Shown here: piece by piece, positions 1,514 through 64,000 of the stretch
Layout: each line of letters starts with the position of its first letter
How positions within the stretch are numbered: the stretch's first letter is position 1
Origin: Asterochloris sp. CNOR1
Lineage: Eukaryota; Chlorophyta; Trebouxiophyceae; Trebouxiales; Trebouxiaceae
Reading direction: 5' to 3'
Assembly: GCA_963969365.1 (NCBI GenBank)
Contig: OZ017756.1
Span: forward strand, 1,302,001-1,366,000
DNA length: 64,000 nucleotides
Made by a program: the position numbers and the translations under genes
Notes under the pieces: generated by a model
What the model saw: only the letters and a program-made list of their open reading frames with translations
Told to the model about the DNA's origin: nothing
Databases searched by the model: none

Positions 1514-4500
1514 ATGGCACCCTGTCAGTCCTTGCAGAAGAACACTTGGCCAGTCCGGAAGCATTGCTTTCCACCATGCAGGCCGCTGCGGCAGCCATGC
1601 CGCAGCACACACCAGCCACAGTGGCAAGTGGCTCGCCTGTCCAGGCAGCAGGCAATACGTGTGGCACATGCCGCGTCCACAGAGTCACCTTCAGTGGATG
1701 AGGCCCTGGAGGACGCAGCCAAAAAGGCCGACAAGGGGGCGGATGGGCTCCAGCAGAGCGTGCAGGACGCAATTGAGAACGCCAAGTCTGCCCTGTCCAA
1801 TAGCTTTGATAGCCCTCTCCCAGAAGGCCCTGTTGGCAAATATGAGGAGGCAGAGCTGTCTGACGAGCTGAAGGGAGAGGTGATTCAGTCATTGTGACAC
1901 TGGACACTGAGGCCTCCGTGAAGAGGTCCTGCCTGTGAGGCGCAGCAGTTTGCTGGGGGACGGCAGTGGCAGTCGCGCTTTCATGCACAGCTGCTTGCTA
2001 AGCAGTTGACACCAGGCCAACAGCTCAGTCAGGATGGCCTCCTGCGAGGTGGTGTCGCAGAGCGCGGCTGGCCTGTTCTGACTTTGCTGCACTTGCATGC
2101 ATGTCCTGATTGCTCCCTGCCAGCTGCTGCCAGCCTGTGCAGCTGCCAAGGCAGCAGGCTGTAGTGCTGAATGAACCGATGCAGTGCACTGACCAGCCAC
2201 TTTGGACTGATCCCTGTGTACTGCAGATCATCCGGGTACCCTCCAACTTTGAGGCCAGGCCAGGGCTGCAGCTGACAGAGGACCTGGTTGTGGGCAAGGA
2301 GCTGGGAGAGGGGGTGCAGGGGAGAGTGTTCTGCCTTGACCGCCCTGATGGGGAGGGGACAACTCAACTGCTCAAGGCAGGGCACAGCCTGTCTCCCTCT
2401 GTCTTGCTGTCTGAGGCTTGTTTGCCATCAAGCAGAGGGTCAATTATTGTCTGCAATCGCATAGGGGATCAGCATGGGCTCACCAATGCAGCTCCTGCCT
2501 GTAGTGGCAGCTGTGTCCAAATAGGAACCTCTCCTCAATGCAGGGTAGCCTGCCTCATGATTATTTCTTCCTAGACTTGGCTTATCTTTGCTGGCTTGAG
2601 ACATCAGGACATGTAGCTCTCCAGCAGACAGCATTGGCAGCATGCTGCTTTGCTGTGCTCCATGGTGCCCTTCCCATGCTGTCCCTAGCAGCCCTCACAA
2701 ACCCTGTCAATGGCCTGTGTTGCTGTGCCGCAGGTGATGAAGTACAAGACTCTGACCCCAGTCACTGGCATCGACGTGGGCATGCAGCGGGAGTGGCTCA
2801 TTGGGCAGCAGCTCAACACGCTGAAGGGAGAGGATGGCAAGTTGCATGGTGCGCGCTGCGTGGAGTGTTTGCTGTCTGGAAGTGCCCCCAGCTGCCACTC
2901 CTCGTGTCTTGTGACCTGGCTGGATGCCCTCGCCCCTGCAGGCACTGGCACAGCCTTTGTGCTTACAGAGCAGCAAGCAGCTTGCAGCAGTGGCCTGCAC
3001 TGAGAGGCTGAGCCTGGTGCATCTTCTCACCCTGTCACTCTTGCAGGCTTCATGGCTACGGGCGCAGCCATCATCCAGGAGGACGACATGCTGGTGGGCC
3101 TGCTGATTGAGCGCGTCAATGGGTGGCCTGTGGAGAAGAGGTTGACCAAGGATGAGAGCTTCACTGACATCAACTACCTCCTTGAGTGCCTCCGCCAGGT
3201 AACAAGTCAGGGTGTGCGTCTCCCTGCCCATGCTGGCAGGCCCAGCTGCTGACCCAGTGGTGTGCTGCTGCTCTTGCTCAGCTGCGGCGCCTGCCTGGAG
3301 AGCAGGAAGTCAGCCATGCGGAGCTTGAGCAGGTGTGTGTACTCGTTCATTACAGCATGGTCTTGCACATGCTAGGCCATGAAAGGAAGCACAAGTAGCC
3401 TCCTCGCCTTCATGTGGCATCCAGGTGTTCAGCAGTCAGGGTTTGTCCCCACCTGCCCTGGATGAAGCTGCTGGCCTGCGCTTTGACCCAGCTTGATCCC
3501 AGTCAGGCGGGTGGGGTCACAGCTGATGTGACAAGCAATACACACACGTAGTGCAGCCACCTGGCTGTAGGTGTTCAGCTACCTGGACCGTGCTTACAAC
3601 GAGATTGGTTTCACACATGGTGACCTGATGACCGGCAACATCATGGAGCACAGGTGAGCGACCTGGGAACCCCGTGGGTGGCACCCTGCGGGTTCCACCG
3701 CATGTGCTCTTACTCATCTTGGGGCCCTGAGGCCTGGGTCCCTGCCCCCCCCACCTAGGTGAAGAGCTGATCTAGGGGGCCGTGGTCTGCCATGCTGCCT
3801 ACGCAGCACACAGCTGATAGCTGCTTGGGAGCCCACAGGGACCGCCCTGCTCCACTCCTGCTGCCATCACAACCATTTGTGCCCTGCTGCCAAGACCTGC
3901 ACATCTGGCCAGCTTCATTAGCTGGGTCGCCTGCCTAGCCAGGCGCTTGTGCCGGCCAAGTCATGCTGTAGAGGCAGACATCACTTTATATGAAGGTCTG
4001 TATGAGCCTGATGCCCTGCTTTCGTGAGCCCGGCAGCAGCTTGCTCTCTCTCTCTCCGCTGGGTCCAGCTCCAAAGCTATCCTGCCTTGCCTTCATGCCA
4101 TCAAGAGCAGGACAGGTTGCAGGGGCAAACATGCAGTCCTTTCAGGACTGAAGCCTCACAAAGAGCCGAGTCAGGATCTGGTGCCCTGCTGCCATGCTGT
4201 ATGCCCCCTGCTCATGCACAGCCGGTCCTGCTCTGGTGCCTGTGTGGCAGCAATTGGCAGCTGTCCAAGCCTGCTCTCTGGCGCAGGACTGAGGCGCGCA
4301 CATTCCTGCCCAAGGGCTTTGTGGATGAGGAGAACACCATGACGGGGTTGGTGGACCAGGAGAACAATGTCTTCAAGCTAGCAGGTGGGGTTCCTTGTTG
4401 TTTTGCAAAGCAGGCCAGGCTGTCTGTGCTGCTGTCGGCTGGCCGTCCAGAATGATCACACTGCTGGTTGCCAGGTGGGTACACACACTCTCTTCCAAGC

Positions 4501-6198
4501 TGCCTGCAGCAAACAGTAAGCCATAAGAATCATGTGGGGCAGCACCCTGCAGCATCTGGTCCTGCAGAAGGCACAGGTACACATGCACCTCTCCAAACAG
4601 CAGGTGACCAGCGCACAAAGAACCACCCTGACCTGCTCGAGCAGGCACCAGCACCACCAAGATAGATCAGAGATGCTGAATCTTGTGACACAGATGCTGT
4701 GTTGAAGCTGACGTGCAGTGGCTGGCTAGCTTATACTTGCTCAGCATTAGCATGCGTCTCTTCACATCCGCATGCGAGGCATGTGCCAACGTGCTGAGCT
4801 AAATGAATGAACAGATCTGCCTGCTGCAGATGATGACGCTCCCCGGGAGCTGGAGTTCAGGCTGCTGGACTACGGCCACGCCAGGCTGAATCGCAGCAAG
4901 GCGCTGCAGCAGCTGCCCAAGGCACACAACTTCGAGAAAATCGGTTACCGTCAGTGAGTGCTGCCATGATTCGCTGTCACTCAGCAGTCCTGGTGGGTGT
5001 GGGGCATGCTCCCTCTGGGGCATGCAATGCTCTGCAGGGCACCACCCAGAGAGCATATGAGTAATGAGCCATGCCCTGGTGACCTGAGGACGACTCCCTG
5101 TGGCGGCAGCTTTCTGACAACTGACAACTTCTCTCTGTGTAGGATCTGGAAGAACAAGGGGGATGTGTGGAGGCTTCTGCAGGACGTTGCTGTCATCATT
5201 GATGGCAGGACATGGAACGCCCGCGACGAGCCTGAGGTGCAGCTTCTGCTGCAGATTCCTGCTGCTCTGAGGCGTGGCTGCAGATCTTGACGATGTGCTG
5301 ATTTCTTGAGCCTGATCACATGCCTTGCCGTAGACTCCCCTCTACTCATGCTGCAGGCTTTGCCTGTGCCTTTTGCTGGACCCCTGGCTGTGCCAGATGT
5401 TCACCTTGCTATGATCTTTACAGTATTGTATAGGATGACCACATGCTTACTTTCTGCTGCTGATGCTAAGTCTCTCTTGCAGGTGCGGCTGCTCATTGGC
5501 CTGCTGCGCAAGGTGACAGGCGTCACTGTTGCAGCATTCTTCCGGTCAGACAAGGTGCGGCCCAGACTGGACAGCGTGTGCGTCACAATTATCTGTTGGC
5601 AGGCCTGGCCTTTGCGGCAATGGAGTGCATGCCTTGTCAGCTCAGTATGTGCGGCTCAGCAGAGGAGGCTGTGCTCAGCATACACCGCTCTGCTGCAGGT
5701 TGGGGCCATCAGGTACAGTGGAAAGCAGGCAGAGATGCCCTGGCACCAGAGCGGTGGCTTCGGCCACGACATCCGCATGTGGCGCATGAGGTGAGAGCAC
5801 CAGCTGCGGTCAGCGCATAACCCCTTGCCACTCTGCTTTGTGTCCATTGCTGTCAGCTCAAGCAGTATGTTCCAGGATGCCCCAGTTAGGTCGCCTCCCA
5901 CATGCTGCCCGGTCCTGGCCTGTCAGGTCTTCAGGCCTCTGACAATCCCCTGCCACTGAGCTGTGCTACTGTGAGCAGGCCTCTGACAATCCCCTGCCAC
6001 CGAGCTGTGCTACTGTGAGCAGGCTAACAGAAGCTCTGCGCACTCAAGCAGTACCTGCTACTACCTGCCAGGTTCTGGGCCTTCAGCTTTGAGCGCAACA
6101 CCAAAATCCTTCCCGGGGAGGCCCTTCAGTGGTTGAACGACAAGGAGGAGTACTACCAACAGAAATATGCAGGCGCCCGTCCATCCTCTGCAAAATGA
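1514..6198 (+). CDS. Protein-kinase-like protein with predicted chloroplast transit peptide
   Basis: Twelve exons join in phase: 1514-1879, 2227-2376, 2734-2848, 3047-3198, 3282-3332, 3571-3653, 4287-4384, 4830-4953, 5143-5236, 5483-5554, 5699-5790, 6072-6198 (507 residues, TGA). Residues 1 to about 45 are Arg/Ser-rich and nearly free of acidic residues, ending near RVAHAAS, like a plastid transit peptide; an acidic helical stretch follows to about 122. The kinase fold begins with LGEGVQG (149-154), then a beta-3 lysine near K172 or K175, the catalytic loop THGDLMTGN (H294, D296, N301) and LDYGHAR (352-354) in place of DFG. Catalytic residues are present, so it may be active, but it matches no classical Ser/Thr kinase subfamily I know. 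A short insert follows the catalytic loop. Intron 2 uses a GC donor at 2377. The substrate is unknown. An extra upstream exon is possible. Confidence 0.8.
3421..3436 (+). repeat. Weak copy of the acceptor edge of the next kinase exon
   Basis: CCAG followed by GTGTTCAGCA matches the first bases of the true exon that starts at 3571 (GTAG then GTGTTCAGCT). It lies upstream of that exon inside the intron. It is only about 14 bases long and could be chance, but it fits the exon-edge copy pattern seen across the window. Confidence 0.35.
5932..6019 (+). repeat. 44-bp perfect-unit tandem duplication inside kinase intron 11
   Basis: Two head-to-tail 44-bp copies (5932-5975 and 5976-6019) differ by one base (CCACTGAG against CCACCGAG). 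They lie in the intron between the exons ending at 5790 and starting at 6072. The near identity implies a recent duplication. Each copy contains GTGAGCAG, a donor-like string. Confidence 0.9.
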
Positions 6199-6673: not shown

Positions 6674-9600
6674 TCAAACTCGAACATTGTAGTCTCCTGA
6701 CTTGCAGACCTTCCGCACCCACTTATCGACCTTGTAATTGCTCTTCTCCCATACCTTCAAGTACTGCACCCGCAGGCCACTTGCACTGAACATGGGCACC
6801 TGCACACAAGAGGCTGATGCTTTGTGCATGCCACAAGGTCAGCATCAGAGTAAAGGAGAGCGCCGCCTGTGGGTCTGTGTGGCCAGAGGAGCAGAGCTGG
6901 GAGGAGCATGCACTATGATCAAGCTCTGGCAGCAGGGCTCACCTGGAAGGCCATCTGGATGGGTGGTCGTGCCCAGGGCTTCTTTTCTCTGGTGGTAGCT
7001 ATGAGCTCAACAGAGGCTACCAGAGCGCTCTCTGTCTGCCCTGTAAAGCGCTTGATTTTCCAGACCAGGCAGTGCTTCTTGCTGTCGTACTTGGCCTTGC
7101 CTGCAGGACCACCGCAATATGAAAATCACATTAGAAAGAGAATCATGGTGAACATTGCAGGGCAACAGCGGCCACCACATGACAGGTGATTTGGACACAG
7201 CTCTGGACCTGAATACCATTGTGCAAGGGAGAAGTAAGAACCCCGTGCCTGTAAACAGCAGCAGCGAGCTGGCACATGCAAAGCAGCAAGTAGCTGACCT
7301 TGTGAAGTCTGGATGTCTGCCTTTGCTGTGTTGTCAGGCACAGGGATGTTGACCACCACGTTCAGCGCAAACAGCTTGTTGTTGAATGCGCTTTTGACTT
7401 TTACATTAACCTGCAGGGGAGGCATCGCTAGAGTTGCAAGCCATGACAAGCCACTGGGACAGCGATCTCCAAAGCATGAGACCTCCTGACCGGCAGCTTG
7501 GCTTCCGAACCCAGATGCAGGGCCCCTTGGCATAAGACAGCAACCAGGGGTGAGCATCCTGGCACAGCTTTCGTTCCTTCAGCCCCCATACGCAGCACAA
7601 GAAGGCAAGACCCAGCCCTAGCAGCGCATCTTTTGTCAAGCCACTCCCCTCACGCCCCACCTGCACTCTCTCACACATGCACTGGTCACCTCTGCAGCAC
7701 CACAGCCCCCCCAAACTTGCATGCATGGCACATGCAGCATGTCTGCTAGAAAGGAAGCCATGGAGCATACTCGGAAAAGCTCCCACAAAAGCAGCACACA
7801 GCCCACACTGCAATATATCTGTGCGTCTAGTTGCATGTTAGATACACAGCCACCCTCTGAAAAGGCCTCAACCCATCGCAGATGCCCAGCAGAGGTCCAG
7901 CCCTTGTACATCTCCTCACCCACCTCCATGCGAGTCCGGCCCATCTCATTGATGATAGGCAGGACGCGGAAGGGCAGGCTGATGCCCTCCTGGCACCGGT
8001 ACTTCATCAGGTCAAACTCCCCGTCGGGTGGCACGAAGCTGACCACCTTCTCCGTGTTGAAGCGCCCCAGGTTCACGCACTGGTGGAAGGTCACGTCCTG
8101 CAGGCACATGGGGCACCGTGAGTGATTGGAGCAGTCAGGGACTACCCACAGAAAAGAGGCAGCATGCTGCATGTGAGGTTGACAAGTGAGGGCCTGCTGG
8201 CTGACCCACTTGTGAGGGGCACCTGCCATCCTCACAAACTGAGCAGTGCGCGTAGATGCAGGCAACTGTGTGCACACATCCGGCACGACACCACAGGCAG
8301 AGTCAGGCAGCTCGGCTCCGGCAGCGCCGCAGAAAGCAGGTGCAAACCAATTGACTGCCGTCTTACAGCTTACTAGGCAGCTGCCATACCATCAGCACAA
8401 CCCATCCCCCACCTGCACCCACCTCCAGCTTGTTGTTCAGTTCCAGTGTGGCATCAGGCATGCCGCTACATAGCAAGCTGCATGGCGCGGCCATAGCTGT
8501 CTCTACCCACTCTTACTTCCAGTGCATCACATAGGCTGGCACCTAATGAACATACTTACACCTGCAGTGCTGCAGGCAGTTGAGGGACCGACCACCATGA
8601 GCGCACCTCCCACCAGAAGATTGTGATCCTGGTCAAGGCTTGATCCTCACCTCCAACTTATCGTTCAGGCCCAACTTGACATCAGGCATGCCACTGAGGA
8701 AGACTTTCATCACGATGCGCCCATTGACATCTGCCCGCAGCACCGTGCCCTTGTTGCTCATCAGCATGTTCACCTGCGGGAGCCGGGTGAGCCTGTCAGG
8801 GCATAGGAGCTGCGGCCCTGTGTCAATTTCTGGACTTCTCAGCCTTCTGACTAGTCAGGTGGGCCGGGGGCTGCCTGTCCATGCTCAGAACTGCAGGCGA
8901 GCTTTCAATGCCCTAGCTGCTGACGGCATGTACAGCCCCAGGAGCCAGCCGTGGATGCTCAGAAGTCCACATGCAGGGCCCTATAGCCTCCTTTCCTGCT
9001 GTCCAGGGGATGCCGGCAATTGCACAAGAATGCGGGCACCAGCTCAGCCGGACCATCACTGCTTCTGCAAGTCACCGACCTGCTCCACAATGTCCAAAAA
9101 AATCTCATTCTTCTTGTACTTCAAGCTGTCTTTGCGCCACCCCACAGCGCCAGTCACCTGCAGGAAGCAGCTCATGACTGAGCTCACTGCTGCAACGCTG
9201 CACAGCCAGGTCAGCCCAGGCTGTCATGACAGCACAGCAGGGACTGCACTGCCGAGAGACAGCTTCAGCACAGCTGAAACACATCAGGGCAATGGGTAGC
9301 AGGTGAGCTGCAAGCTCTTGATATGCAGCTCCGCCAGCACAGTTGCAGCTCCTCCAGCACGGCTCTCTGAAACCAGGCGCAACATCTCCACACCAAGCAG
9401 ACAGCATGGTGCTGTATCCTTCTCACCGGCAGCCTGACTGGAGGCTGCCTCCTGCACCCTCCTCGACTTGACACAGCCAGAAGACAGGGCGGGTTGTCAA
9501 AAAATTGCCAGCAGACAGCATGGCTCAGGTGTGGCCCACCTGCAGGGTGGCTGAGGCTGCCTCCTGCTCCCTCTTCAGCTTGGCTGACTCTGTGATGAAA

Positions 9601-11344: not shown

Positions 11345-13680
11345 ATGGCTGCCACGCTGCTCAGGTCTGTGGGCAGCGTCCTCAAGGGAGCAGGGTCAGC
11401 TCTTGACAGTGCAGGAGCCGCGCTGCAGGGCAGATATGCTTACCGCGAAGCATGTGAGTCTTTGCTCCAAAGCTTCGTTGCTGCCTTCCCATACAGTCAT
11501 TTCCCTTGTAAAGCAGTGTACAGCAGAGGCGAACTGCTGTTCTGTTGAGACTTGGATGTTGCTTGTGCAGTGCCCCTGCACCAGACACTTCAGGCCTTTG
11601 CTGGCAAGCGGCCCACGCTGGGGGAGCAGACCTTTGTGGCACCCAACGCTTCAGTGATTGGGGACGTTACCATCGGGAACAGGGCTTCTGTGTGGTACGG
11701 GGCTGTGCTCAGAGGTGAGACCAGAGTGCCCGTTCAGGAGCACTGCATCTGCTGCCTGCAGATGCAGCTGAGCAGCTGCTGGCTGGTGCCCATGACCTGC
11801 CTTTCAGAACACCACTTTTTCTTTTCAGACTTCAGCTGACTCAGGTTGGCCCCTCCTGCTCACCTCAGTCTGCCATCTGATCATGATGGTGCTTGTGATG
11901 CTCTCCATGTAGTCAGGCAGCCTCCATGTGGCCCGCTTAACCAGCTTCTTGCGAAACTGTGCCCACCCACTGACCATGCTATTGCATCCTGCAGGTGATG
12001 TGCAGAGCATAAAAGTGGGTGAGAACACCAACATCCAGGACAATGTGATCATCCACGTGGCCAAGCACAACCCCAAGAACAATAGACTGCCCACCACAAT
12101 AGGCAGCAATGTCACCATTGGTGAGGCAGTCGGCCCCAGAGCCTCTGAGGCACAGCTTTGTGGTACGTACAACCTGGCTGCCATCCAGCTGCAGGCTGGA
12201 CACAGGCCTTCCAGCGCACTTCGATGGCATGCCTGTCTGTGCATTGGCTGGAAGAGGCCGCTCAGCATCTCACCCATCGGCTGGCCACAGGCATCTTGTG
12301 CGATGCAGGGCATGGGGCCACCATTCACGCCTGCACTGTGGAGGACGGCTCACTGGTGGGCATGGGGGCAACAGTGCTGGACGGAGCCACTGTGAGTGTC
12401 TGCAGTGCTTAGCACCCCGCAACAACATGGGGCCCGCTGTCCCTCAGCACTTGCCGGCAGCACCTCCTGGCGGCTCAACAGTGCCAACATCAGAATGAGT
12501 GGCAAGAAGAATGAAAGTTCCTGGCACCACCTGCTTGACACTGCGTGACCTCTGCCCTTCAGGCCTACAAGACCACCGCTGTGGCAGCCGGCAGACACAT
12601 CTCATGCACTGCCCTGCAGGTGCAGATGTGCGATACAGTGACAGTTGCACAAAATTTCTCATATTCTGTGCCTACTGCCATGCAGGTCCAGAACAATTTG
12701 ATCTAGACATTTGGCAGAGACTTAGTCTCTGCCCTGCAGGTCCGGTGGCAGTTGGCTGGCACCTCCTGACGTCGTGCACACGTTCCCCTGCAGGTCCAGA
12801 AGTGCTCCATCGTGGCAGCGGGCTCCCTGGTGTCCCCAGGCACCACAGTGCCCACTGGCGAGATCTGGGCCGGCAACCCAGCCAAGATGCTGCGCAAGCT
12901 GGATGCTGATGAGCGGGAATTCATCAAGCAAAGCGCTGCCAATTATGCCCTGCTAGCAGACATCCATGCCTCGGAGAATGCCAAGACGCCAGAGGAGATC
13001 GAGGTGAGCAGTGCTGCTCTTGAGCTATCAAACCCCATTACCATGCCATAAAGTTGCGTGGCGTCCCTGGCATGATGATTGACGTGTTTCTGAGCTGGAC
13101 TGCTCAGGCATCTGGCAGTGCCTGGGGCTTCAAATGGCAGCATTTCCTCTTACAAAACCCTGGGCTGCTCATGCTCATGGTGGAACTTGTGTTGCAGCGC
13201 AGCACACATGGGGAGGTGTATCTCTCTGGGATGTTGTGCCTCAAGCTGCTGACTGCGCTCGGCCCTCCTGCAGCGGCGTGTCAGGAGGGGAGGCCTCTAG
13301 AATGGTTTTCATGTTCTTGGGTGCTTGTGTGCTCTTTCAACCATCGCAACCTGTGCAGGTGTTCAATGCAGACAACAGCGCTGAGGCTGTTTGTCCAGCA
13401 AGCCACTGAAGTTGCACACTTCTGGCAGTGCAGCACTGACACAAATCTTGAGGAGTCCCTTGCTGGCTGCAGAAAGACAATGATCTTAGGTTGGATGGTC
13501 GCATGCGCACAGCAGATTACGATAGCCACCTAGGCATTGTGCGGGACCCGGTGACGCGTGAAATCGTAAGTGCACCATCAACTGCTTCTGCCTGTCATTC
13601 TCCATGTGGAGTGCAACAAGCCTCTTGACTCTACTGTATGATGCTGCTACTTGCAGGTCCTGACAGCAAAGAGCACCTGA
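11345..13680 (+). CDS. Gamma-carbonic anhydrase (mitochondrial complex I matrix-arm domain)
   Basis: Seven exons: 11345-11453, 11571-11714, 11995-12120, 12309-12391, 12794-13003, 13473-13565, 13657-13680 (262 residues, TGA). The start ATG opens MAATLLRSVGSVLKGAG, very like plant gamma-CA N-termini. A left-handed beta-helix with hexapeptide repeats follows: FVAPNASVIGDVTIG, SVWYGAVLRGD, NIQDNVIIHVAKHN, GHGATIHACTVED, GMGATVLDGA, IVAAGSLV and GEIWAGNPAKMLRKL. Metal-ligand positions seem present: HVAKH supplies the first histidine and GHGATIH the two later ones. In plants and algae these trimers form the extra matrix domain of complex I. The end differs from plant CA1-3: KDNDLRLDGRMRTADYDSHLG and a 24-base last exon. 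An extra small exon between 13004 and 13472 is possible. The intron before 12794 holds three decoy acceptors. Confidence 0.92.
12611..12750 (+). repeat. Three decoy copies of the acceptor edge of gamma-CA exon 5
   Basis: CTGCAGGTGCAG (about 12615), ATGCAGGTCCAGAA (about 12680) and CCCTGCAGGTCCGG (about 12733) precede the real acceptor CCCCTGCAGGTCCAGAAG at 12788-12799 in one intron, spaced about 55-65 bases apart. Only the last joins in frame to the conserved protein. Confidence 0.7.
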
Positions 13681-14595: not shown

Positions 14596-17500
14596 CTATG
14601 CAGCAATCAGGCGCTCGATCTCCTCCAGGGTCTTGCCCTTGGTCTCTGGCAGGTAGCTGGACTTTGCAAAGAGCACAGCCGCGACACAAACTGCTGCGAA
14701 GAAGCTATACACTGTGCTCTGTCCGACTGCCAGCAGAGTGGGCTCGAAGAACTGGCCAATGGAGAAATTGCAGATCCAGTGGACTGCCATCGCCAGAGAC
14801 ACAGCAGGGGCTGCAGGCAGGGGCAAGTAAAACAGCTCAGGCATTTGCACCTATTGACCACATCGATTCCGCAGCGTGAGCTGCGCACACAAGTCATGCA
14901 AGGCGGCTGCTAAGGAGGGGTCATGTACAACTCAGCCTAGAGATGATGCTGTCAGGCATGTGTGGGGTTGGCCCCAGGGTGCTGCCAGCCAGAAAAATAC
15001 GCAGAGTTGCAATTGCATTAAGCATAGGTCCCCACCCAGCACATAGTTGACAAGCTTGTGCAGCCTGACTGAGGAGGTACAGCAGCATGCAACGCAATAA
15101 TGGCATCAGCAAAGGGCGCCCACTCACCACGCAGCCTCTCAGGGTTGACCTCGGGCACCATCAGGCCGGTCACAGCCCCAGCGCCCAGGGAGAAAGAGAT
15201 GATGTAGCCAAGGATGCCAACAAATGCAATGGTGCCTGTACATGGACAGGTTGTGATCAGCCCAGATTCAAAAATGGAGGGGGACAGAGGAGATGCCCAT
15301 GAGGGCTGGCGCGCAGCCTGCAGGTGTGCAAGACTGCAGCAAGACGGCCTGAAAGTCTGCAGCTATCAAACGGCAGCCAGCCCACCAGCTGAGCTTGCCA
15401 GGGCAGCCATGCTGCTGCCAGCTGCCAGGGCCAGCATGGCAACCGCCCTGCCTGAGGAGGTGAAGGCAAACACAAGCACATGTTCATGCCCCCATCAGCA
15501 TGCTGCCGTCGTTACACCCAGGGCATCATGCACAATCATTGCTCACCTGCGGAGCTTGCCAGGGCAGGCACACTGCTGCCAGCTGCCAGGGCCAGCATGG
15601 CCACCGCCATGCCTGAGTAGGAGATGGTCAGCAGCTGCTTGCGGCCAGCCTTCTCAATGATGCTGCCGGCAATGATGGTGCCAATCACGTTGGTCACGCC
15701 CACTGCTGCACTGGACAGCTGGGCGTTCTGGATGCCAGCCTGCATTGCAATCAAAGCAGAGATTGAACATGTCGGCATGGGGCGTGCCCACGGCGGCGCT
15801 GGACAGCTGGCGCCAGCAACGCTGCCTTTCCAAGCACCCCCAGGTTCTGGTCAATGTGCTGCAGGTGTCACCAGGCGGCCAGACATGTTAGAGAATGCAG
15901 TTAGGGTTGCACGCCCCTGCAGGCTGAGGACAGCGTCGCTGCACGCTGCAGCCAGCCGCCTATTGGCAGCCAAGCATGAGCATGAGCAGCAGTGTGCATG
16001 CAGGGGGCCACTGACCACCGAGCATAGACATTGCGTTGACAAAGGAACAAAGTGACAGCATTGATGACAACACTTCGCTGGAGGTAGAGAGGTGCAAGTG
16101 CCCCCCTCCACCTGTCCAAGGGCCTTGGTGCAGGACATGCGCACAAGACAATGGAGAGTTTTGTACTTTTGGGTAGGGGACCTGCCCCTGGCCCAGTAGC
16201 AGGCCACAGAAGTGAATGCGCAGTGGTGCTCACCTGGGCAAAGACCTTGGTGGAGAAGTAGATGACAGCGTTGATGCCAGAGAACTGCTGGAGCAAGAAC
16301 AGGATCACGCCAATTCGGGCGCCACGGAAGCTAAGCAGCTCCGACAGGCTGACCTTGGAGGAGTGGGTGCTGGCAGCCTCAGGCTTGCCACCTGCAGGAT
16401 GCTGTGGTGACAGGGTCAAGGAAGGAGGAGGCCTCGTCGTGCAGGCTGTGGTTGCTGAGAGCCAGCTGCTTGTAGCCTGGCAGCTGCCAAGCGGGTGCTG
16501 AAGGGATGGGCAGACATGCGGTGCTTTACAGACCACTCACGACTCATCAGCAGGAGAGTGTTGTCACTGGCATCGCATAGTGTGCCTCAGGCAGTAGCAG
16601 TGCTGTGGAGGGGAGATCAGCAGCAAAGGTCATGTCGCTTTGTGTGTGTGTCATAGGGCCTGCTGCAAGGCACTCACTGTCAAGCTGGGAGGCGCCGCTG
16701 GGGCCCCAGAGCTTCTTGGCGGCGCTGTCAGCCTCAGACTTCTTGCCAACCTGGCTCAGCCACCTGGGGCTCTCTGGGCAGGTCAGCATGCCTGCACCAG
16801 GAGGGCAGGGACATCAGCTGCTTGCCATGTGGGGGCACAGCTGGTGGGGTGCAATGCAGGCCATGCACTGCCACGGTCAGGCACACACCCCTGGACCAGC
16901 AGGCGCTGGATGCAGCTTGCTGCTGACGTAGCAGCACTGAGGCCGCTGGAGGCCAGTACAAGCCTCGCGGCCAGCAGCATGTGCTTGGCTGCTCTGTACA
17001 GCAGCCGACCCCGTCCCCAAAGCCCAGGCAGGGTCACGCAGGCAGAGCTGACTGCACCTGGCAGGCATCCTGGGTCTGGTCAGCAGGTCAGCACAGCCAG
17101 CAGTCATCCCTTTGCAGAGCTTGCACCACTGGCAAACAGGTAGCACTGGGCTGATATCCACAGGCAGTGACTGCGGGGCACCTGGCTGATGGCAGTCAAT
17201 GTCCCCAGGGCAGCAGCCAGGTTTCATGTTCACTCACCAAAACCCAGCAGGACAGCGGGGCCCATCGTCATCCAGAAGAGCTTGCGCCACTGGGCAGCGG
17301 GGACATAGATGTTGGCCACCAGGGCAAACAGGATGCCCAGGCAGATGACCAGCTGGTTGACAGAGCCCAGGGCGCCGCGGATCTCAGTGGGGGCGATCTA
17401 CACAGCAGCGTAGTGGGGGTGAGTGACACAAGGGGCCTGCATGTCTCGCCGCCTGCTGCAGGCATGTGCAGACCCCTCAGCCAGCTGGAATGCTGGTATG

Positions 17501-48137: not shown

Positions 48138-48308
48138 CCCAGCACTGAAATTGCTTTGGATTCCTCAGTCATTTCATGATTTAAGTCATAAGTGTGGTCA
48201 TCTTATACGAAGTGCAAGTAGTCGCTGCATGCAGTGCATCCTGAAGTGAGTGCCCATGACGGCCATGAATTTAGTTTTTGCATTAAATGATGTACTTGGG
48301 GCTGGACG

Positions 48309-50405: not shown

Positions 50406-50498
50406 CTGATGGTATGCAGTGGCTCTCCTGCAAAGCCTCAAGTTGATGTCTGAGCTGCTCTATCTGATACATGCAACACTTGCACACTGATAACCTCA

Positions 50499-53400
50499 AT
50501 GTTGGCGGGGCTGTGCAACATCAAAACATGCTGTCACCTAGGTAATTACTTGGCTGGTGCATGCCAAGGACATAGTGAGTGGGCCAGGCCTCTGTCCCGT
50601 CTTCAACGCCTGTCTGATGGCACAGATACTTTTACACTCAGCAGTGCAAGACAATTAGTCTGGTCAGCCTTGGTTCAGCAAAGTCATGGAGACAATTGCA
50701 GACAGCTTGCCTCCTTCAGCAGCGCCACATGCACAGCAGCGCCCGCCTGGCACAAGGCCTTTCACGTGGACCCGCCATCCACACTCAACATATCAGCAGC
50801 CTGTGATGTGGCTGTGCTCCTTAACAGGCACCCTGGTGGGTACGAGCAGATCAGGCTTGAGGTAAGCGGCGCCAATCCACACTGTTGCCACTTCCGCTGC
50901 ACGTGTGAGGATCCGTGCTTGGTCACGCATATCATGCCCACCGCTGCAGGGTACTGAGGAACATGAGCTAGAGGACCTTGCCGTGCGGCAGGATGGCAAC
51001 AGCATAGGTGAGTGCACACGGCCACCCTTGATTTGGGCTGCGCCACAGGGCTTCTGCTTGCGTGGCCCCAGGGCTGCAAGATGCTGCTAGTCCCCTCTGA
51101 CAAAGTTCCCCTGCATCTCAGATGCTGTCACCCTGCCTGCTGCAGACGTGAGGCTTGACGCCGCACCCGAAGGCCTGAGGCTTACCTGCTGCATCCCTGA
51201 GCGCTACTGCAGCGTGAGGGTGCGCGCCAATGGTGAGGTGCGCCCATGAGCCAGCTGCTGAGATCTCGTGTCACCACTCCAGCAACGGGCCATTTCTGTT
51301 CAGGGTTTCCTGGCCAGCAGCTGCAGAGGATTGTGTCCCATGCCACAGTCCAGTTTTGGAGATGTAGCTCATGCTGACTCCCAGCAGCCACTGTGCAGGC
51401 ACTGCCTAGCCAGGGTCGGCTGTCTCTGAGGCGAAAGTCATGTTCCTGACCGTGCTGGTGCAGTACCAGGTATCCTGCCCTGGACTCCAGCAGAGGTTTG
51501 CTTCAGTCTTTGACAGTGGCAGACAGGTGCTGCACACATCAGTAGGACATGGGGCATCATGTCTCATCTATGCATGCTCCCCTGGGTGCAGGAGACATTG
51601 AGGTGCAGACTATCAATGAGGGAGCGCTGCACCTCCAAAGCGCAGGAGGGGCCGTGAAGATGGGCAGCATCAAAGCCAGCGACATCTCTGTCGCCACTGC
51701 AGGTGTGCAGCGACGTGGGCCCCTCCTGTGAGCTGCCCCTGTCCTGCCAGCCAGGCCGCATTGCAGCACATTCTCCAAAGCAGTGCTGATCGAGGTGTCG
51801 AGAGCACCCAGATCGTTTGCTGTGGACTCCTGTACAGTGTGCGCCCCTCCTGTGCGCCGAAACTAGTTCGCCCCCACGCTGGCCGTGCAGACTGGGTTCA
51901 GGCTTGCGGCATGTCTGCTTCAGGGCCCTGCCATGCTTGTCCAGCACTGCCTGCCTGCAGGTGGCCCCATTGAGGCTGGCACCCTCACAGCTTCTTCAGT
52001 AGACCTGTCCAGCCGCGGCGGCAGCATCACAGTGAGGAAGATGATGGGGTTGGACGTCAATGTGGCTGCAGGCACTGCAGGGGAGCACTCTGAGCGGTGA
52101 GCTGCGCTGCTGCCCCGCAAGGCACCAGCCAGGCAGCTCAGGCACAGCACCTCTGCACCTCTGCAGAGACCCAGCAAGGAACTGCTCCTGCTGACCCTGC
52201 CTCACAGCTGGTGCCAAGGCAGAACACAGCACATCAGCTCACTGCATGTTGCGATGTGCAGGTGACTGGATGGTGGGACCCACTCTGACACTCTGAGCAG
52301 ATGCTGTGCTGTGCAGGGCGGCGGGAGACGTCAGCCTCCACACAGTCTATACCCAGAAGCACCTGGGAGTGGAGGCAGGGCACCTCAGCATGGGCTTCCT
52401 TGACACCACTGATGGGGCAGCCAGCTTGAGAGCTGGTGCCGATGCTGAGATCAAGGGGCTGGATGGGGACGCTTCTCTGCACATCCAGCAGGGCAGGGCC
52501 CAGGTGAGGCTGGAGCAGTCTGCTGGGCATGCTGCTGCCGGGCAGGCCACAGCTCAAGAGATGCCTGAGACGGCCCTGAGCAGCATGCTGCAGATGCGAG
52601 CCCAGGTGATGCAGACATGGTGGCCCCCCACAGCTGGAGGGCAGAGCACAGGTGAGGCCTGGGCAGTCTGCTGTGCACCCTGCTGCGGGGCACCCTGTCT
52701 GAGCTGGCTGCAGCGCCACTTGCAGCTGGCCTGGGGCGGCTGCAGAGCAGGAGTTGAGCAGTCTGCCGTGCAGCTGCACCGGCGTGGGAGGTGGTGATGC
52801 CTGCGAGAGCCCTTGCACCACATGGTGTGGGTCACAGCGCGGGTGAAGCATGAGCAGAGTGATGCGCCGTGTGTTGCCCCACCATTGTTGCGGGACACTG
52901 GCCAGCTAGTGCCTGGGCAGCCTGCTGTGCCACCTTGCATCTCCTGCAGGGCACATATTACTGGAGCCGGCTGCGAAACACGTTGCAGCTGGACCCATGC
53001 AGCTGCCGGGCAGAGGCTAAATGGTGACACCGCAGCCCATTGCGCCTCTGTGCCAAGGATACGGCACAAGCACTGCCTGTGCAACTCGCTGTGTGCAGCT
53101 GTGCTTGCAGGCATGATTGCAGTGGCTGTGGACAAAGTCCACACCACACTTCTATCACTCTCCCACTGCACAAGCGCAGCCTGCCTGAGCAATGTCTCGC
53201 TGCAGGTCAACCTGCAAGAGAAGCTCAGGAGGCTGCGGGTAGCTGGCAAGGATGCAAGCCGTGTAACCATTACTGTGCCGCCGTCGCTCAGGCGAATCAA
53301 AACCTTTCTGAAGACAGGCAGCCTGACTCTCCAAGAGGGCATTGTATATGAGGTGCGCAGCGGCTGTACTGAAGGACAAGGCTCTGGCAACAAAACCCTG

Positions 53401-54262: not shown

Positions 54263-57200
54263 TCAGATTTTGACTTGGATCTTGGACAGGATGCGCTTGC
54301 CATGAGGCGTCCCACGCAGGGAGGGCAGGTAGGGCCGGATCGCGTCCACCAGCTGCTGGTGCAGGCCCTGGCTGGACACTGTCAGCGCGCTCTGCAGCAC
54401 GTAGTTGGCGTATGGGTCCTGCAGCAATGGCAGATGTGGTGTTAGCAACTTACATTCTTCACAAGAGGGCAAAGCCTGGCAGGACATGGTCAGCATGCTC
54501 TGCATCCTTCACAACGCCTGCACCCACGCCAGATCTTTGGATGGGCATGCAGCCTGCCTCAAATGTCACCACAGCACACGCTCCCCAGCGCGCTGCCCGG
54601 TCAAAGGCAGGGCTTGAAAGCACATTCCCAGACTCCCATCTCGAGCAAGCAGCCTACATGAAGGAGCCGTGACAGTTGGCAGCCCCCTGCAGACACATAC
54701 AAAGAGCAGGCCCCACCTGCAGCAGGCGCGGCAGCTGCGGCGACAGCATGAGCTCCCGTATGACGCGCTCCCGGCACTCTGCCAGCCCCGGTCCCCCAAG
54801 CTTGAGGCACTTCTCAACCACGTTGGAGCTGAATTTCTGCTGCGCCAGGTCGGGGTAGTGGTCATACAGCTGCTTCATGATGGTGGCTGTGGCCTCCACA
54901 TGCCCCAGCTCCAGGACATACTGCACTACGTAGTTGCCAAAAGGGTCCTGCAGGCGACAAGCAGTAGTCATCAGCCATCAACAATCCTCATATGCCCCGC
55001 AGTGGGGACATGCAGCCTGCAGGCCACAGAGCCTGCATCACTGAGAGGGTTCTGCATGGGGAGGAGACAAGGTCCAGACAGGTGTTCTGAGCCCCGCCAT
55101 GCAAACGGCTGATCGGGACTGCGCCCAGAGGCTGGACAGCATGACTGCTCATGCAGCGATGCAGGACAGGGGAGCAGTGCTGCATGACGCGCTCTGTGGG
55201 CACTGCAGATGCCCACCTGACTGCACAACCACTGCAGGCACAGCACAACCCTGCCTGGCCACATGGGGCCTCCAGGGTGGACTGTACAGATGTGAGGTGC
55301 CCGGACACTGTGCACCCACACTAGCCTCCCCATCACGCACTACCTGGCTGCATGCAAGCAGGTCTGCGGCATTCGGCTGCCAGCACAAACATGCATCCAG
55401 CAGCGCAGATCAGGTTTGTGGCAGTCCCAGCCTCCAGAAGTAAACACATGCCCAGCAGCAGGCGCCTACCTGGCTGAGCGCAAGCGCATTGGCAGCGATC
55501 TCAGCGACCAGCATACGCTTCTGCACAGGAGTGGCGAAATCGATGCACCGCTGCAGGACGCAGCACCCGTGGCGGTGGGTGGCGATCTCCATGGTGTGGG
55601 AGCAGGCGGCGTCGTACACAAACTGGGAGTCCTCAGGACCCAGGCGTTGCAGACAGCGCTGGATGACGTGGTTGCCGTTAAGGTCGCGAATCAGGGCGAC
55701 CACGCCCTCGCGCAGGGTCTGCACCACTAGCTGCCTCTGCAGGTGACGGAGGCAGGGGAGTCAGGTGTGGTACAAGGGGGAATCGAGCATCAGCCTCTGC
55801 AGGCAGCGGTGATGAATCGACACAGAAGGTTGAGCGTGCCCAGGTTCTCTTGCATAGCCTGCATAGCCAACTGCATCTCTGCACTGCTGGAGCCAGCTGC
55901 AGAAGCAGTTTCACCGCCATCCCAACCCCGCCCTGCAGCCTTTCAGGCCCGACCCGAAATGCAGCAGTGGCAGCATCTGTGCAGAGCCTGGTTTCACCCA
56001 GATGTGTCCACTGTGCAGTGCTGGTGGGACAGACTGGCACGCACCTGCTCCCGCGTGGCCAATGTCTCGATCAGTTTCTGCACTGCACGTGTGCCGTGCG
56101 TGTTCAGCGCCGCGGTGACCAGCCGGTCCTGCTCCGCAGCTCGCTGGAGCACCTGCACAGCGGGCAAGGGCAGACACTGTCAGACACCCTGTGAGGGGCA
56201 GGCTGCAACTGTCTGCTCAACACTGCTAACCCTACGCAGCAGGCAGGGGTCACAACAGTGGGGCACAAGGTGTCGTTCTGCTCTACTTTACTCTCACAAT
56301 CCTACGGGCAGGCAGGATGAACTTATTTGAGGCCCTGCATGGGGCAAACTGCACCATCAGCCACTCTGCAGGGGCACAAAGTCCTCAAAGTACACGATGC
56401 CTTTGCCTTTGGCAACTTGTCAAGGAATTACCTAGCAATGTGAACTGCAGCTGGCGTTGTGCACAGACACACGCGAGGGCAAGATGCGGGTCCATCCCAG
56501 CAATGCGTCTAGCACTGTCCAGGGCAGCACACCTGTCCTCACATTCACAGTGGTGGCCAGACTGCACATTGACAACTGGGACTAGTACATACGCCGCTTT
56601 CACCTGCAGCCTCTGTTCCTCTGAGCATCTGTCCAGCAGCTTCTGGATGAGATAATTGCCAAAGGGGTCAACCATCAGCTCGATCAGGTTGTCCAGGATC
56701 TCAGGGAACACTGCTGCGATGGCTGCCGCACCCCCCTCCTCAAACTTGCGCTGGAGGAAGCGGCACCCGTTCTGGTCCTTGGCAACGCCCACAACCTGCA
56801 GCCACCCAAGCACATGCGCTGAGCTCTGCACAAATTATACATATACGTAGAGAGATGCAGGCAATGCAGGGGATTGCTTGCACAGGAGGCAGCGCAACCT
56901 GTTCCAATACTTTGCAATGCTCTCCACATGCAGGCAAGTTGCACAATGGCGCTCAGCCTGCACTTGCACGAGTGACAGGTGGGTGCAAGCTCGGCTGTCT
57001 GGTCATTGCAGGGCCTCGGCAGTCCTGACTGCCTCACCTGCAGGCTGCAGAACCTGCAGCACTTAGGTACAGCAATGGCATCAAGAATGCCAGGTGATGC
57101 AGCCTCCTCAAGGCGGAAACACTCTCTGGAGGGTTGTGCTGCAGCCGTCCCGCAACTGGCCCTGATGACCCCATCTCGGGAAGAGCCTTGGACAGCTGGA

Positions 57201-60200: not shown

Positions 60201-61656
60201 AGAGTGCTACTACCCAGCAGGCTCCTCTGCACTTGTAAAAGTCTTGATACGCCAGGCGCCAAAGGCAACTCAGGCAGCACAGCCATCTGGGCCTCTCCAG
60301 CTGGCAGGTGTGCAGAGGTTATTCTTGTCTTGGCTGTGCCGATGCAGCTCACACAGGCAGGCAGCCCAAAAGGATTGCCCCAGGCGCCGTGCCTTGCCAT
60401 CCAGGCAGTCTGTCTCATCTGGCAGGTGCCGAACCTGACCTGGCGGCCGCCATGGCCGCCTGCTGCCTCCCCGGCAGGCCCCTGCAGGAGCAAAGCAGCC
60501 AGCACGGCGATTTGCAGTCTGACCTGCGCTCGCCATGGCCGCCTGCCGCCGCTGCTGCAGCTGATTGTACACGCTGGCGCTGGCCAGCGGCGGGGGCAGC
60601 TTGGTGCCCGAGCCCGCGTGGGCTCGGTAGAAGCGCTCATAGTCTTCATCGCAGCGGATGTCTGCATACCCATCCATGGGCGTCCACCTTCCGTCTCGCT
60701 GCCCTGTGGCTGCCTGCAGCCAGCAGCAGCAGGGCTGGTGAGCATGGGGAGCCCACAAAAAGGCCAGGGCAAGCATGACAGGGCGACTGCTGCTTCCTCA
60801 TTACCACTGCTGGCCGCTTGTGTGCAGAAGCCTCTGTGCCTGGAGACACGACCCATCTGTAAGCGTCCATCCTGCTGCCCTGTGGCCGTGTAAAGGGAGC
60901 AGCTGGCGTTTTTTTCTCCAACTGGCTGCCTGCCTTGCACTGTATGCTAGCTGATCAGCCAAGCTTTGTGCCTGCTGCTATTCCCTGTGGAGTTAAGCAG
61001 CAATGATGTGAAGTCGCTTAGGCAGTCTATTGCTACAATGCCAGTGTTGGACCTGCTGACCCAATCCACAATTCTGACGTTTGTCAGACTGATCACAGGA
61101 CCTCCTTTGCCGGCAATGGACCTCCTGAGCGCACTGCCGCCAATTCCCTTAACAGAAACGGCCTCAACTGGACTGACTTGCAAGCACCCTTGATCTTGGA
61201 TGGCAGTTTGACCCGCATAACAACCAATGACAGGCGCTCTGATGGCTGCCGAGCAGGTGCTGAACCTCTGTGGCCAGCACAATGCACCGTTGGAGATTTG
61301 CAGGTGGACATGCACGCTGCTAAGGGAAGCCCTTCCCCGCCAAACCCAGAAAGCCTGCACTTCTCCACCTGCAACCATGCACATGCAGCCGAGGGGGCAG
61401 GCAAGCTGCAGGTTTATGGCAAAAGTCCTGTGCCGCCTGAGAGCATTGACTTTGTAGACTGCCTCACCAAGTGTGCTGCCCAGTGATCCTCCAGGTGCGG
61501 CGGCGCCGAGGTACTGCGGGGCTCGAAGTCATCTATCAGGCTGGCAACATTCTTGTCTATCTGGCGCCTGCGGGCAGCCACCATGAGATGGGCATAGATT
61601 CGACCTCCCGAGGACTGGCAGCTGTGTGCAATCGTAGAGACCTGCCGCTGCCGCAT
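54263..61656 (-). CDS. PUM: Pumilio (PUF) RNA-binding protein
   Basis: Fourteen exons on the minus strand, all in phase: 61656-61468, 60713-60524, 60085-60008, 59792-59685, 59530-59319, 59021-58922, 58349-58144, 57839-57680, 57432-57260, 56795-56604, 56152-56045, 55736-55470, 54947-54717, 54418-54263 (789 residues, TGA). The first ATG follows an in-frame stop; a second candidate is at 61584. The N-terminal 450 residues are Gln/Ala/Gly-rich and disordered, with RSTSAPPHLEDHWAA, a motif conserved in plant and animal Pumilio. The C-terminal PUF domain has eight repeats with cores CRFLQ, NYLIQ, TRAVQ, NHVIQ, CCVLQ, NYVVQ, SNVVE and NYVLQ. By the PUF code this should bind UGUA-type elements in 3' untranslated regions and repress or destabilise the mRNAs. 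Splicing of the Gln/Ala-rich part is less certain than that of the PUF domain. Confidence 0.92.
60431..60470 (-). repeat. Copy of the 3' edge of Pumilio exon 60524-60713
   Basis: CTGACCTGGCGGCCGCCATG and GCCGCCTGCTGCC match the exon end and donor (TCTGACCTGCGCTCGCCATG, GCCGCCTGCCGCC at about 60519-60550). It lies in the downstream intron, about 70 bases away. Confidence 0.75.
60852..60890 (-). repeat. Copy of the 5' edge of Pumilio exon 60524-60713
   Basis: CCATCTGTAAGCGTCCATCC and TGCTGCCCTGTGGCCGTG match the exon start (CCATGGGCGTCCACCTTCC, CGCTGCCCTGTGGCTGCCTG at 60675-60716). It is in the upstream intron, so this exon too has a copy on each side. Confidence 0.72.
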
Positions 61657-62135
61657 GCAAGACGGTCAGCCCAGGGCCTTACCAGTTTGGGCTGCTGCTG
61701 AGCTGCTGCTGGTTCTCCCTGATGGGCTCCGGCTGGGCATACATCTCAGCTGGCCAGCTGCTCAACTGAGACGGCTTGCACAGGACAAAAAGAAGGAAAC
61801 TAACAGACGAAAGAACATCTCCAGCTGCAGAGCCCTGGACAGCTGCCAGCTTGATTCTTATACAACCAAAGAGAGAGATCAGGAGAGACTTGCATTAGCT
61901 CTGAGGCCAGGTCACGTTGGACCAGACCTTTCCCTGGAAGCCTCCAGGTAAGCTCAGCTTCACCCGTCTGATTGCATGGACACGGCACCACCAGCTGCTC
62001 TGCAGCCTGTAAGCTGGGGAGAGGGGTTTCGTTACTGAGGCAGTTGGCCCGAAATCTGAAGCACGGCAGGCTTCGGTCAGCACGCACTGAGAGCCGCCTG
62101 AACCCTTGCTGAGGCCGTTTTGGTCCTTGGTTGTC
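61657..62135. promoter_or_regulatory. Head-to-head interval of Pumilio and the right-edge gene
   Basis: About 480 bp between the Pumilio start (61656, minus) and the ATG at 62136 (plus). It should hold both promoters. No ORF with a domain and no clear core-promoter motif was seen. Confidence 0.45.
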
Positions 62136-63504
62136 ATGAGTCTGCCGGGGCAGGGCCAGAGCAGCACCCAGTTGTGTTCCAGGGGACCCCCTCCAGCCCT
62201 GGCCGCTTTGCTGCAAGCCAACTTGCCCATGCAGGCCACGAGGGGTCCGGCAGGCAAAGGCCTGCTGCCAGGCTCAGGAAAATCAAGTATACACATCATG
62301 TCCAGCATGAGAGTCAACGAGGGCGCAGGTCCCAGCGCATCACCCTTGCTGGACCCATCTGGCCTCACCAGCAGCCGTGGCCGTGTGGTGAAGCCCAGGC
62401 AGTGGGATGATGGCACGGAGACAGCCCCACCTAGCGGTGAGCCCATATATGGGCTGCTCCTGCACACCATGCACACCTGCTTTGCTCATTAGTGGTCGGG
62501 CCTTGGAATGGCCTTTTCTTGAAGTCTGGGCCTCAGAGCCACTCCTGCTGAGTGCTCAGACCAGTCGATGTGCAGAAGCTTCGCCACTGCACAACCTTCC
62601 CTGGGGGTGCAGCACAGCTCTGCAGATGCATTGCTCAGCCTGCTGCCTGGTGTAGCTGGCCTGGGAAGCATGAGGCTCCCCAAGGGTGTCGGCCAGCAAG
62701 CTGGAGCTGCTGTTTGCCTGTTGCCGCCTGGGAGGTCTGGTGCTTCCATTCCGCAGGTGTGGCCGGCCCGGGAGGCAGTGGCGGAGCAGGAAGGAGTAAG
62801 CTCCCGCGGCGCAGGGACGAGAACTCAGAGTCGGAGCAGGACGACCAGCAGCCGAGGCAGCGCAAGTGAGCTTCATGCTGCGACGTTGGTGGCATTGAAG
62901 CCTCCTGGTGCCCCGTGCCATGTTGCACACTTACAATGGGGCTGAGTGGTGCTGTCTGCAGTGCATGCTGCGCACGTCGCGGGCTGCACATTGCCAATCG
63001 ACCTTGAGAGCTACGATGTGGGTACGTGCAGCATGCTTTCGTAGAGCAACCTACTCTGAGTGGGTTCAAGGGGCTGCTGGCCTGCCTGCAGACACTGCAT
63101 CAACCGCACCACAGCCAGGTGGCCATGCATGTGCCATGCGGCGTGCACCTCCCCCCAGGCCGCCAGCTCTGACGCCACTCCTCAGCACTTACCTGCAGCT
63201 CCTCGCAGTGGCAAGCTGACTTTGCAATCCGCCTGGCCAGGCACGACCCCTGCAGATGATATGCTGCGTACCCAGTCAGGTTTGCAATACAGTCCTCTGA
63301 CTTGCTGCAGGCGCCGCGCCAACTATGCGATCAGCCTGGCTAAGCGCGGCAGCGTGCCGATCCGGGACGAGACTGGCCGCTTCATTGGCGTGCGCCCCAA
63401 GACGGCGGCCGAGCGGGCCATGAAGCAGCCTCTGGGGAGCGGTGGCATCTTCAAGAGCGCTGCTGTGGAGGTGCTGCGGCAAGAGAAGCGCCTGATGTCC
63501 ACTG
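62136..63504 (+). CDS. Nuclear-type protein with HARE-HTH-like segment, 3' part outside window
   Basis: Three exons in phase are visible: 62136-62436, 62757-62865 and 63311-63504; the last ends at a GT donor in phase 1, so the gene continues past the right edge. The N-terminus (MSLPGQGQSS...) is Pro/Gly/Ser-rich. Exon 2 is strongly basic then acidic (SKLPRRRDENSESEQDDQQ), like a nuclear localisation region. Exon 3 has RRANYAISLAKRGSVPIRD, then GGIFKSAAVEVLRQEKRLMS, which resembles the opening helices of the HARE-HTH domain (a winged helix of chromatin and restriction proteins, as in ASXL). The rest of that domain is missing, so the call is tentative. The role may be chromatin-related. The start codon is the first in-frame ATG. 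Confidence 0.55.
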
Positions 63505-64000
63505 GTGAGCCCTGGCAGGGGGTGCCTGTGGCCAGGCGGGTGAGGGCATGAAAGTCAGGTGGGGCACTGTAGTGACTCTCCTGCTGGGAGCAGGTACAGC
63601 AGTGCAGCTCTTACAGCAGAGAAACGCCTGGTGTCTGCCCGGTGGGACCTTGGGGCTGTGTCGCACTCAAAGGGCGCATGGTCCAGGATCAGGTGTGAGG
63701 TGCAAGGTGGCGCCTGATGCCCACTGGCAGGACCTTCGTTTTTGATGTACCACAGTGAGGAATGGGGAAGGGGGGCTGCTGCCAGATACTGCTTTGCGGG
63801 GCAGTTGCTGAGAGACTGCTGCAGTGAAGGTGCAGCAAGGTATTTCGCCTGCTGTTCATGGGAGAGGCTGACTGGCATTTAGTGGTATGGCGGTGGCGCC
63901 TGTGACGTCTGGGCAGAGGGAGTTGCCTGCAAGGCGGTGCTGCAGCAACACATGTGAGGTCTGGGGCTTTGTTTGCCACAGGCACCCAGGGCACCTGTGC
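63505..64000 (+). other. Intron sequence of the right-edge gene, with an exon-edge copy
   Basis: About 500 bp after the last visible donor. It contains a copy of the preceding exon's end at 63616-63650 and no acceptor that continues the HARE-HTH-like domain convincingly. A phase-1 candidate acceptor at 63727-63730 leads to a frame with no resemblance to the domain. Confidence 0.4.
63616..63650 (+). repeat. Copy of the 3' edge of exon 63311-63504
   Basis: AGCAGAGAAACGCCTGGTGT and CTGCCCGGTGGGACC match the exon end and donor (GCAAGAGAAGCGCCTGATGT, CCACTGGTGAGCCC at 63480-63508). It is about 110 bases downstream, in the intron. Confidence 0.75.

Follow-up and report, generated by a model that had tools for sequence, protein, structure and literature searches.

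The window, the whole 64,000-nucleotide stretch of Asterochloris sp. CNOR1 DNA analysed here, carries genes for AP2M, a gamma-CA-like hexapeptide protein, a sugar transporter, eIF1, a Fes1-like protein, ERCC1/Rad10, Duc1, a DUF4097 protein and Pumilio. Of the eight window proteins submitted to Pfam, seven matched a fitting family and one, a kinase-like protein, matched none. COPB2 and the gene at the right edge lie outside this set, and the putative COPB2 gene is so called after an earlier note on this DNA. In the PDB, the gamma-CA protein matched mitochondrial complex I carbonic anhydrase subunits best; these are plant proteins and, like the gene content, would fit a green alga. No tRNA gene was detected in the window, and an Rfam search of the window and of one further stretch (L007) gave no match.

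The base sample comprises the window and 18 further stretches, each 10 kb long, on contigs C1-C18 (19 places, 244 kb). A 60 kb stretch of C3 was held out; it was fetched after the base sample, with the gene model and all settings fixed beforehand, and brings the whole sample to 20 loci and 392 introns in 304 kb of a 56.4 Mb genome (21 contigs). Genes were predicted ab initio with a gene finder of our own, trained without labels on the 19 places and seeded with a synthetic GC3-biased codon table. In these 244 kb it predicted 34 genes and 312 introns (median intron length 400 bp), with AG|GTGAG-like donors and TGCAG|G-like acceptors. Some window models are merged, COPB2 being joined to pGlcT, and ERCC1 to Duc1 and the FAM185A-like gene.

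Copies of exon edges in the window

According to the earlier note, the introns of at least ten genes contain degenerate copies of the edge of a neighbouring exon. In our edge test, 40 bp exon windows, minus the splice signal, were compared with introns by Smith-Waterman alignment at a score of at least 28, with introns of other genes as controls; about 4 chance matches are expected at this cut-off among the 78 copies catalogued. Six of nine window gene models contained a copy, which, after we split two merged models, amounts to eight genes: AP2M, COPB2, pGlcT, SIL1/Fes1-like, ERCC1, Duc1 (DUF1769), Pumilio and the right-edge gene (score 30 only). The presence of such copies is confirmed, in the window for these eight genes. 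Among the other genes named, FAM185A was detected by a junction scan only, gamma-CA is weak, and the kinase-like gene is not supported, with 0/20 edges copied and a match near 3421 that scores 23, a value often reached by controls. In the window, 28/190 junction queries reached a score of at least 30 (control 2.7), and all 15 pairs found by self-BLAST lie at most 450 bp apart.

Several pairs lie in genes on the reverse strand. A pGlcT-like 3' exon edge of 81 bp, together with 6 intron bases (15541..15627), is copied in the downstream intron at 15380..15466 (87 bp, 87% identity). This is not a plain head-to-tail tandem, since the 74 bp spacer between the two is unlike the sequence that follows the copy. 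A pGlcT-like 5' edge at 15698..15722 recurs in the upstream intron at 15786-15810 (edge score 36), and another at 16749..16788 has a weak copy at 17056-17093 (edge score 29). A further match, at 16268, which scores 29 and extends by just 7 bp, is likely to be due to chance and is not counted among these pairs. In AP2M, a 3' edge plus 30 intron bases (9510..9582) is copied in the downstream intron at 9396-9470 (edge score 47, 76% identity), and a second 3' edge, at 8648..8695, at 8420-8467 (edge score 42). COPB2 has a 5' edge at 28873..28949 copied in the upstream intron at 29076-29151 (edge score 33, 74% identity) and a weak 5' copy (24167..24204 at 24243-24283, edge score 28). In the SIL1/Fes1-like gene, the 3' edge at 36913..36963 has two copies in the downstream intron, at 36675-36724 and 36567-36620 (edge score 48, junction-scan score 62), and that at 34363..34438 has one at 34178-34254 (83% identity). 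One Pumilio exon is copied at both ends, its 3' edge (60519..60550) at 60435-60467 (edge score 40) and its 5' edge (60690..60710) at 60866-60886 (edge score 30); a further Pumilio 5' edge with 36 intron bases (56745..56831) has a weak copy at 56877-56963 (edge score 29, 70% identity).

The remaining pairs are on the forward strand. In ERCC1, whose protein has a Rad10 domain, the exon whose 3' edge (40345..40411) is copied in the downstream intron at 40487-40551, with 79% identity over 67 bp, also has its 5' edge (40223..40278) copied in the upstream intron at 40057-40110 (edge score 40). Similarly, a Duc1 exon has its 3' edge (46436..46477) copied at 46584-46625 (edge score 52, residual spacer similarity 26) and its 5' edge (46243..46275) at 46102-46133 (edge score 29, junction-scan score 41). 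The FAM185A/DUF4097-like donor junction at 52480..52528 is copied at 52629-52676 (junction-scan score 55) and is absent from the edge catalogue. The gamma-CA 5' junction at 12772..12818 has a weak copy in the upstream intron at 12602-12644 (junction-scan score 35), with 0/10 edges in the stricter edge test, and a 5' edge of the right-edge gene (63322..63348) has a weak copy at 63219-63245 (edge score 30).

Exon-edge copies are widespread and ordered

Across the 19 places, a copy was found for 40/287 3' edges in the downstream intron (control 2.2) and for 38/288 5' edges in the upstream intron (control 1.9). Over the 392 introns, a degraded copy of about one exon edge in seven (∼14%) lies in the adjoining intron. 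The null from dinucleotide-shuffled introns was comparable, at 3.4 and 1.1 matches in the two expected orders, and edges compared with the introns of other genes gave 2.7 and 3.1 matches, which is the level of shuffled introns. Exon interiors used as queries showed little or no excess (4/133, control 1.45; 5/135, control 2.1), and exon windows starting at least 60 bp from the junction were near background, with one exception at 140 bp on the 3' side (2/54 versus 0.4). Reverse-complemented edges showed no excess (3/286, control 2.7; 2/288, control 2.2), and the copies are thus in direct orientation only.

In the opposite order, 3' edges gave no clear excess in the upstream intron (3/288, control 2.4) and 5' edges gave little in the downstream intron (6/287, control 1.7). 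The held-out 60 kb replicated this pattern, with 17/71 and 6/72 copies in the expected 3' and 5' orders (0.7 expected for each), 3/72 and 0/71 in the opposite orders (0.75 and 0.55 expected), and 1/44 and 1/46 for exon interiors. At a score of at least 32, all 20 loci together gave 37/358 and 26/360 copies in the expected orders and 0/360 and 2/358 in the opposite ones. The strict order described in the earlier note is therefore borne out by the counts; such an order would largely follow from tandem duplication with an intact reading frame.

Copies were present in 18/19 places at a score of at least 28, the exception being L010, and L014 was also without at 32 or more; outside the window, this corresponds to 17/18 places at 28 and 16/18 at 32. 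At these two cut-offs, 74/312 and 49/312 introns contained a copy. The 49 introns with a copy of at least 32 had a median length of 502 bp versus 364 bp for introns without (P = 1e-4), in line with the earlier suggestion of intron growth. Copies were commoner on exons of higher coding score (43/208 edges in the top quartile, 13/121 in the lowest), and hence false exons are not the source of the signal. Coding score also goes up with exon length.

A proposed model of tandem duplication across splice junctions

In our view, these copies are likely to be relics of short tandem duplications, in direct orientation, that have occurred repeatedly in the nuclear DNA of gene bodies, some of them across exon-intron junctions. 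In such an event, a unit of ∼40-150 bp of gene-body DNA would be duplicated directly and in tandem, and a unit spanning a junction would place a second exon edge and splice site inside the intron. The protein would stay intact only if splicing continued at the exon-proximal site, and because that site must stay in use, the observed order would be forced. Each event would lengthen the intron by one unit and leave the protein unchanged. The intronic copy would then decay neutrally, while the exon stays conserved. The gene models, in which the exon-proximal site is the predicted one, support the earlier proposal of duplication across junctions with that site retained.

A probable junction preference

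Duplications within introns are also common. When introns were tiled into 40-mers, 502/4404 (11.4%) had a copy nearby, compared to 2.0% in the control. One example is an intron-only 44 bp tandem duplication with 97% matches in the kinase-like gene (5932..6024, forward strand), the same type of event away from a junction. Hence, the duplication process extends beyond junctions, and a process confined to junctions is not supported; the bias towards them is probably about 2-fold.

It could be argued that even this bias is apparent, that is, that tandem duplication is uniform and neutral and junctions are not special. With the exon conserved and the intronic copy decaying, an exon-edge pair stays visible longer than a wholly intronic one, and in simulations of neutral duplication this one-sided decay alone lifted the visible ratio of exon-edge to deep-intron copies to means of 1.1-1.45. 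The observed ratio is 3.07 (95% CI 2.25-4.20, 392 introns), however, beyond the maximum of 1.92 over 98 replicates (48 + 50). An earlier definition of the ratio gave 2.31, versus at most 1.98 in 40 replicates, and a small simulation with two replicates per setting gave mean ratios of 0.84-1.99. The background was fixed in the two-replicate, 40-replicate and 48-replicate sets and measured in the 50-replicate set. Intron flanks, in which both copies decay alike, gave a near/deep ratio of 1.39 (CI 1.03-1.83), compared to simulated means of 0.8-1.0 and single replicates up to 1.14. This near-junction excess was seen on the donor side and not on the acceptor side, a point in favor of uniform placement.

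Young tandem arrays offer a further comparison. With a period cut-off of 40 bp (n = 33), their median unit is 72 bp and the 95th percentile 150. Junctions were hit by 10/27 young arrays versus 21% expected (P = 0.037); four other cut-offs gave P = 0.011-0.073, three of them above 0.05, such that the excess falls below 0.05 at just 2/5 cut-offs, as a proponent of uniform duplication would point out. In this count, 91/434 exons were classed as short or weak, and two minisatellite-like arrays in the SIL1/Fes1-like gene (window 34791-35335, periods of 57 and 153 bp), where a doubtful short exon is predicted, were set aside as they overlap weak predicted exons. A null that places whole arrays was rejected; it gives 25 observed versus 24.9 expected at junctions and hides the excess. 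Since only one unit lands at random, the right null places one unit. Taken together with the exon-length dependence described below, these data make the uniform reading rather unlikely, and junctions probably have about double the number of copies expected from neutral duplication placed uniformly, a figure whose size depends on the model.

Exon length

Among internal exons of all 20 loci, a copy was found for 7/187 edges of exons of 43-99 bp, 30/242 of 100-159 bp and 55/232 of at least 160 bp, or 4%, 12% and 24% (short versus long, P = 1.9e-9). The effect is present in both the high and the low coding-density half. It also persists when coding density, splice strength and intron length enter a regression, in which the coefficients per SD were 0.67 (0.43-0.93) for exon length and 0.58 (0.38-0.80) for intron length. 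At strong splice sites, the rise with exon length levels off (1/42, 9/50, 14/72). Neutral simulation of uniform duplication did not reproduce the rise and was nearly flat across the three classes: units of 75 bp gave 5.7, 7.8 and 7.2%, units of 110 bp gave 5.6, 7.3 and 8.9%, and the top replicate for long exons reached 13%.

Exon definition would fit this trend. A long exon may tolerate extension to the distal site poorly, in which case the original site would win and the duplication would be harmless; in a short exon the distal site would compete, and the duplication would be lost. We infer that exon definition keeps splicing at the original site where duplications survive. A mutational cause of the rise with exon length is possible as well. 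As a tentative extension of the model, less probable than the duplications themselves, junctions, above all those of long exons, may be the preferred sites of surviving duplication, and this bias, filtered by exon definition, may be a major engine of intron growth in the lineage.

Architecture of the pairs

Among the 12 best-scoring copies, the spacer between copy and source measures 0-6 bp in five, resembles the sequence on the far side of the copy in another five, and is unique in the remaining two. The spacer similarity in the middle group is 26 to 38, compared to a 95% control level of 24 obtained with pieces cut at 120 bp, slightly shorter than some spacers. Over the whole catalogue, 7/78 pairs are head-to-tail, and below the top 12 many spacers lack similarity. 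The copied unit takes in intron DNA past the junction: 14/67 usable copies extend at least 15 bp into the intron, and among the other 53 the intron flanks are still similar more often than expected by chance (17/53 at 24 or more versus 3.5 expected, P = 6.5e-9, against a conservative control that included the pair's own partner).

Three pairs have unique spacers despite good preservation, namely 15541/15380 in the pGlcT gene of the window (87%, 74 bp), 7615/7485 in L007 (90%, 50 bp) and 6032/5940 in L004 (93%, 38 bp). A plain tandem should not leave such a spacer. To account for these pairs, one has to assume filler DNA, an insertion or deletion at a later time, or a different way of copying, and a tandem origin is in these cases a supposition. 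The L007 pair (7485-7695), in a gene that we take from its protein sequence to be ThiC-like, is an 81 bp acceptor-plus-exon copy. Simple decay would predict that offset and tandem completeness track proxies of age, and neither does: offset is not predicted by copy score (rho –0.07, n = 50), nor tandem completeness by exon identity (rho –0.07, n = 71).

Unique-spacer pairs fit templated insertion, in which a break in the intron would be filled during repair from a nearby exon edge, at a distance, better than plain tandem duplication. This route might also account for the blurred order in exons of 43-79 bp, where 5/63 and 2/59 copies are in the expected orders and 2/59 and 3/63 in the opposite ones (0.2 and 0.4 expected for the latter), except that the two 40 bp windows overlap in such exons and one copy can therefore be counted for both edges. 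Longer exons are almost without opposite-order copies, inverted copies were not seen, and 10/12 of the best-scoring pairs are either head-to-tail or show spacer similarity. On balance, we consider templated insertion unlikely as the source of the copies.

Decay of the copies

Among copies scoring at least 32 on exons of known frame, mismatches fell at codon positions 1, 2 and 3 in 83/656, 105/651 and 137/650 cases (12.7, 16.1 and 21.1%). The 22 gaps in copies of at least 32 are all of 1 bp, and there are 3 stops in 620 codons. The coding score per base of the copies, –0.03, lies above that of random intron (–0.09) and below that of exon parts (0.14). The copies decay as non-coding DNA, as one would expect if a conserved exon had been copied into sequence that does not code.

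The earlier note held that the process keeps adding decoy splice sites. Splice dinucleotides were kept in 16/29 and 19/29 of the copies that reach the junction, versus 19.2 and 19.2 expected under neutral decay (18/40 and 21/38 over all copies), and hence there is no sign of clear retention or purging, and that claim is not supported. Functional alternative exons or splice-regulatory decoys under selection could explain why 6/7 mismatches in the ThiC-like copy of L007 are at third codon positions; given the substantial mismatch at positions 1 and 2, the single-base gaps, the intermediate coding score and the neutral loss of splice dinucleotides, we regard such functions as very improbable. That the copies mark newborn introns, created by tandem duplication of an AGGT segment, would presumably yield the same order, yet is hardly credible because this model requires offsets equal to intron length, and the two agree within 12 bp in just 1/78 cases, a weak match (offset 571, intron 574).

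Relation to known processes

Introner elements are a source of genome-wide gain of intron-related sequence in algae, and introners are alike across genes. The exon-edge copies share with introners the genome-wide gain of intron-related sequence in an alga, but resemble their own neighbouring exon only; with other-gene matches at the shuffled-intron level, similarity across unrelated genes was not found.

Of the processes that we found described, tandem genomic duplication comes nearest; PMC3443670 presents it as a genuine route to new introns (Rogers 1989, as cited there). As in that model, a short direct duplication of gene DNA doubles splice-site sequence and the protein can stay unchanged. 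In the model, however, the duplicated segment is exonic and contains AGGT, and what lies in between turns into a new intron, whereas here an existing junction would be crossed and an existing intron lengthened. A single duplication crossing an intron-exon boundary has been described for the potato RdRp gene (PMC4974935); there, a new intron arose and exon sequence was inserted, whereas the Asterochloris copies lie inside the intron, and it is one case, compared to ∼14% of edges. In PMC2809761, which also cites Daphnia, novel introns of Drosophila have direct repeats of ∼8-18 bp linked to break repair. The likeness lies in direct repeats that flank splice sites and enclose sequence of unknown origin; the Drosophila repeats are at new introns, whereas the exon-edge copies are 20-100 bp long and at old junctions. 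Thus, the earlier statement that no named element fits is not supported; what sets the Asterochloris copies apart from tandem genomic duplication is growth of existing introns, and its frequency. Among the literature matches listed, none reports exon-edge copies as intron growth, which is weak evidence of absence. Overall, the earlier interpretation is partly supported.

Intron growth that does not involve transposons is difficult to follow, since the sequence of an intron soon decays beyond the point at which its origin could be recognized. At conserved exon edges, intronic copies preserve the source, such that duplication rate, unit length and survival become measurable from one genome. If junctions are indeed favored, each exon edge would record events, and both intron growth and splice-site competition could be deduced from a single genome. 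Should RNA data confirm the rise with exon length, exon definition could be put to an evolutionary test in a unicellular organism.

Two observations on tandem arrays may be added. In the window and L002-L019, arrays with a unit of at least 30 bp appear to be scarcer between genes (7/69 versus 13.4 expected), which hints at a link to transcription, though some of this 'intergenic' DNA may be missed genes. L013 has, at 7158-7554, an array of 4.8 repeats that runs into the intron; its 82 bp unit contains an exon edge and donor, and one splice junction is thus present in several copies.
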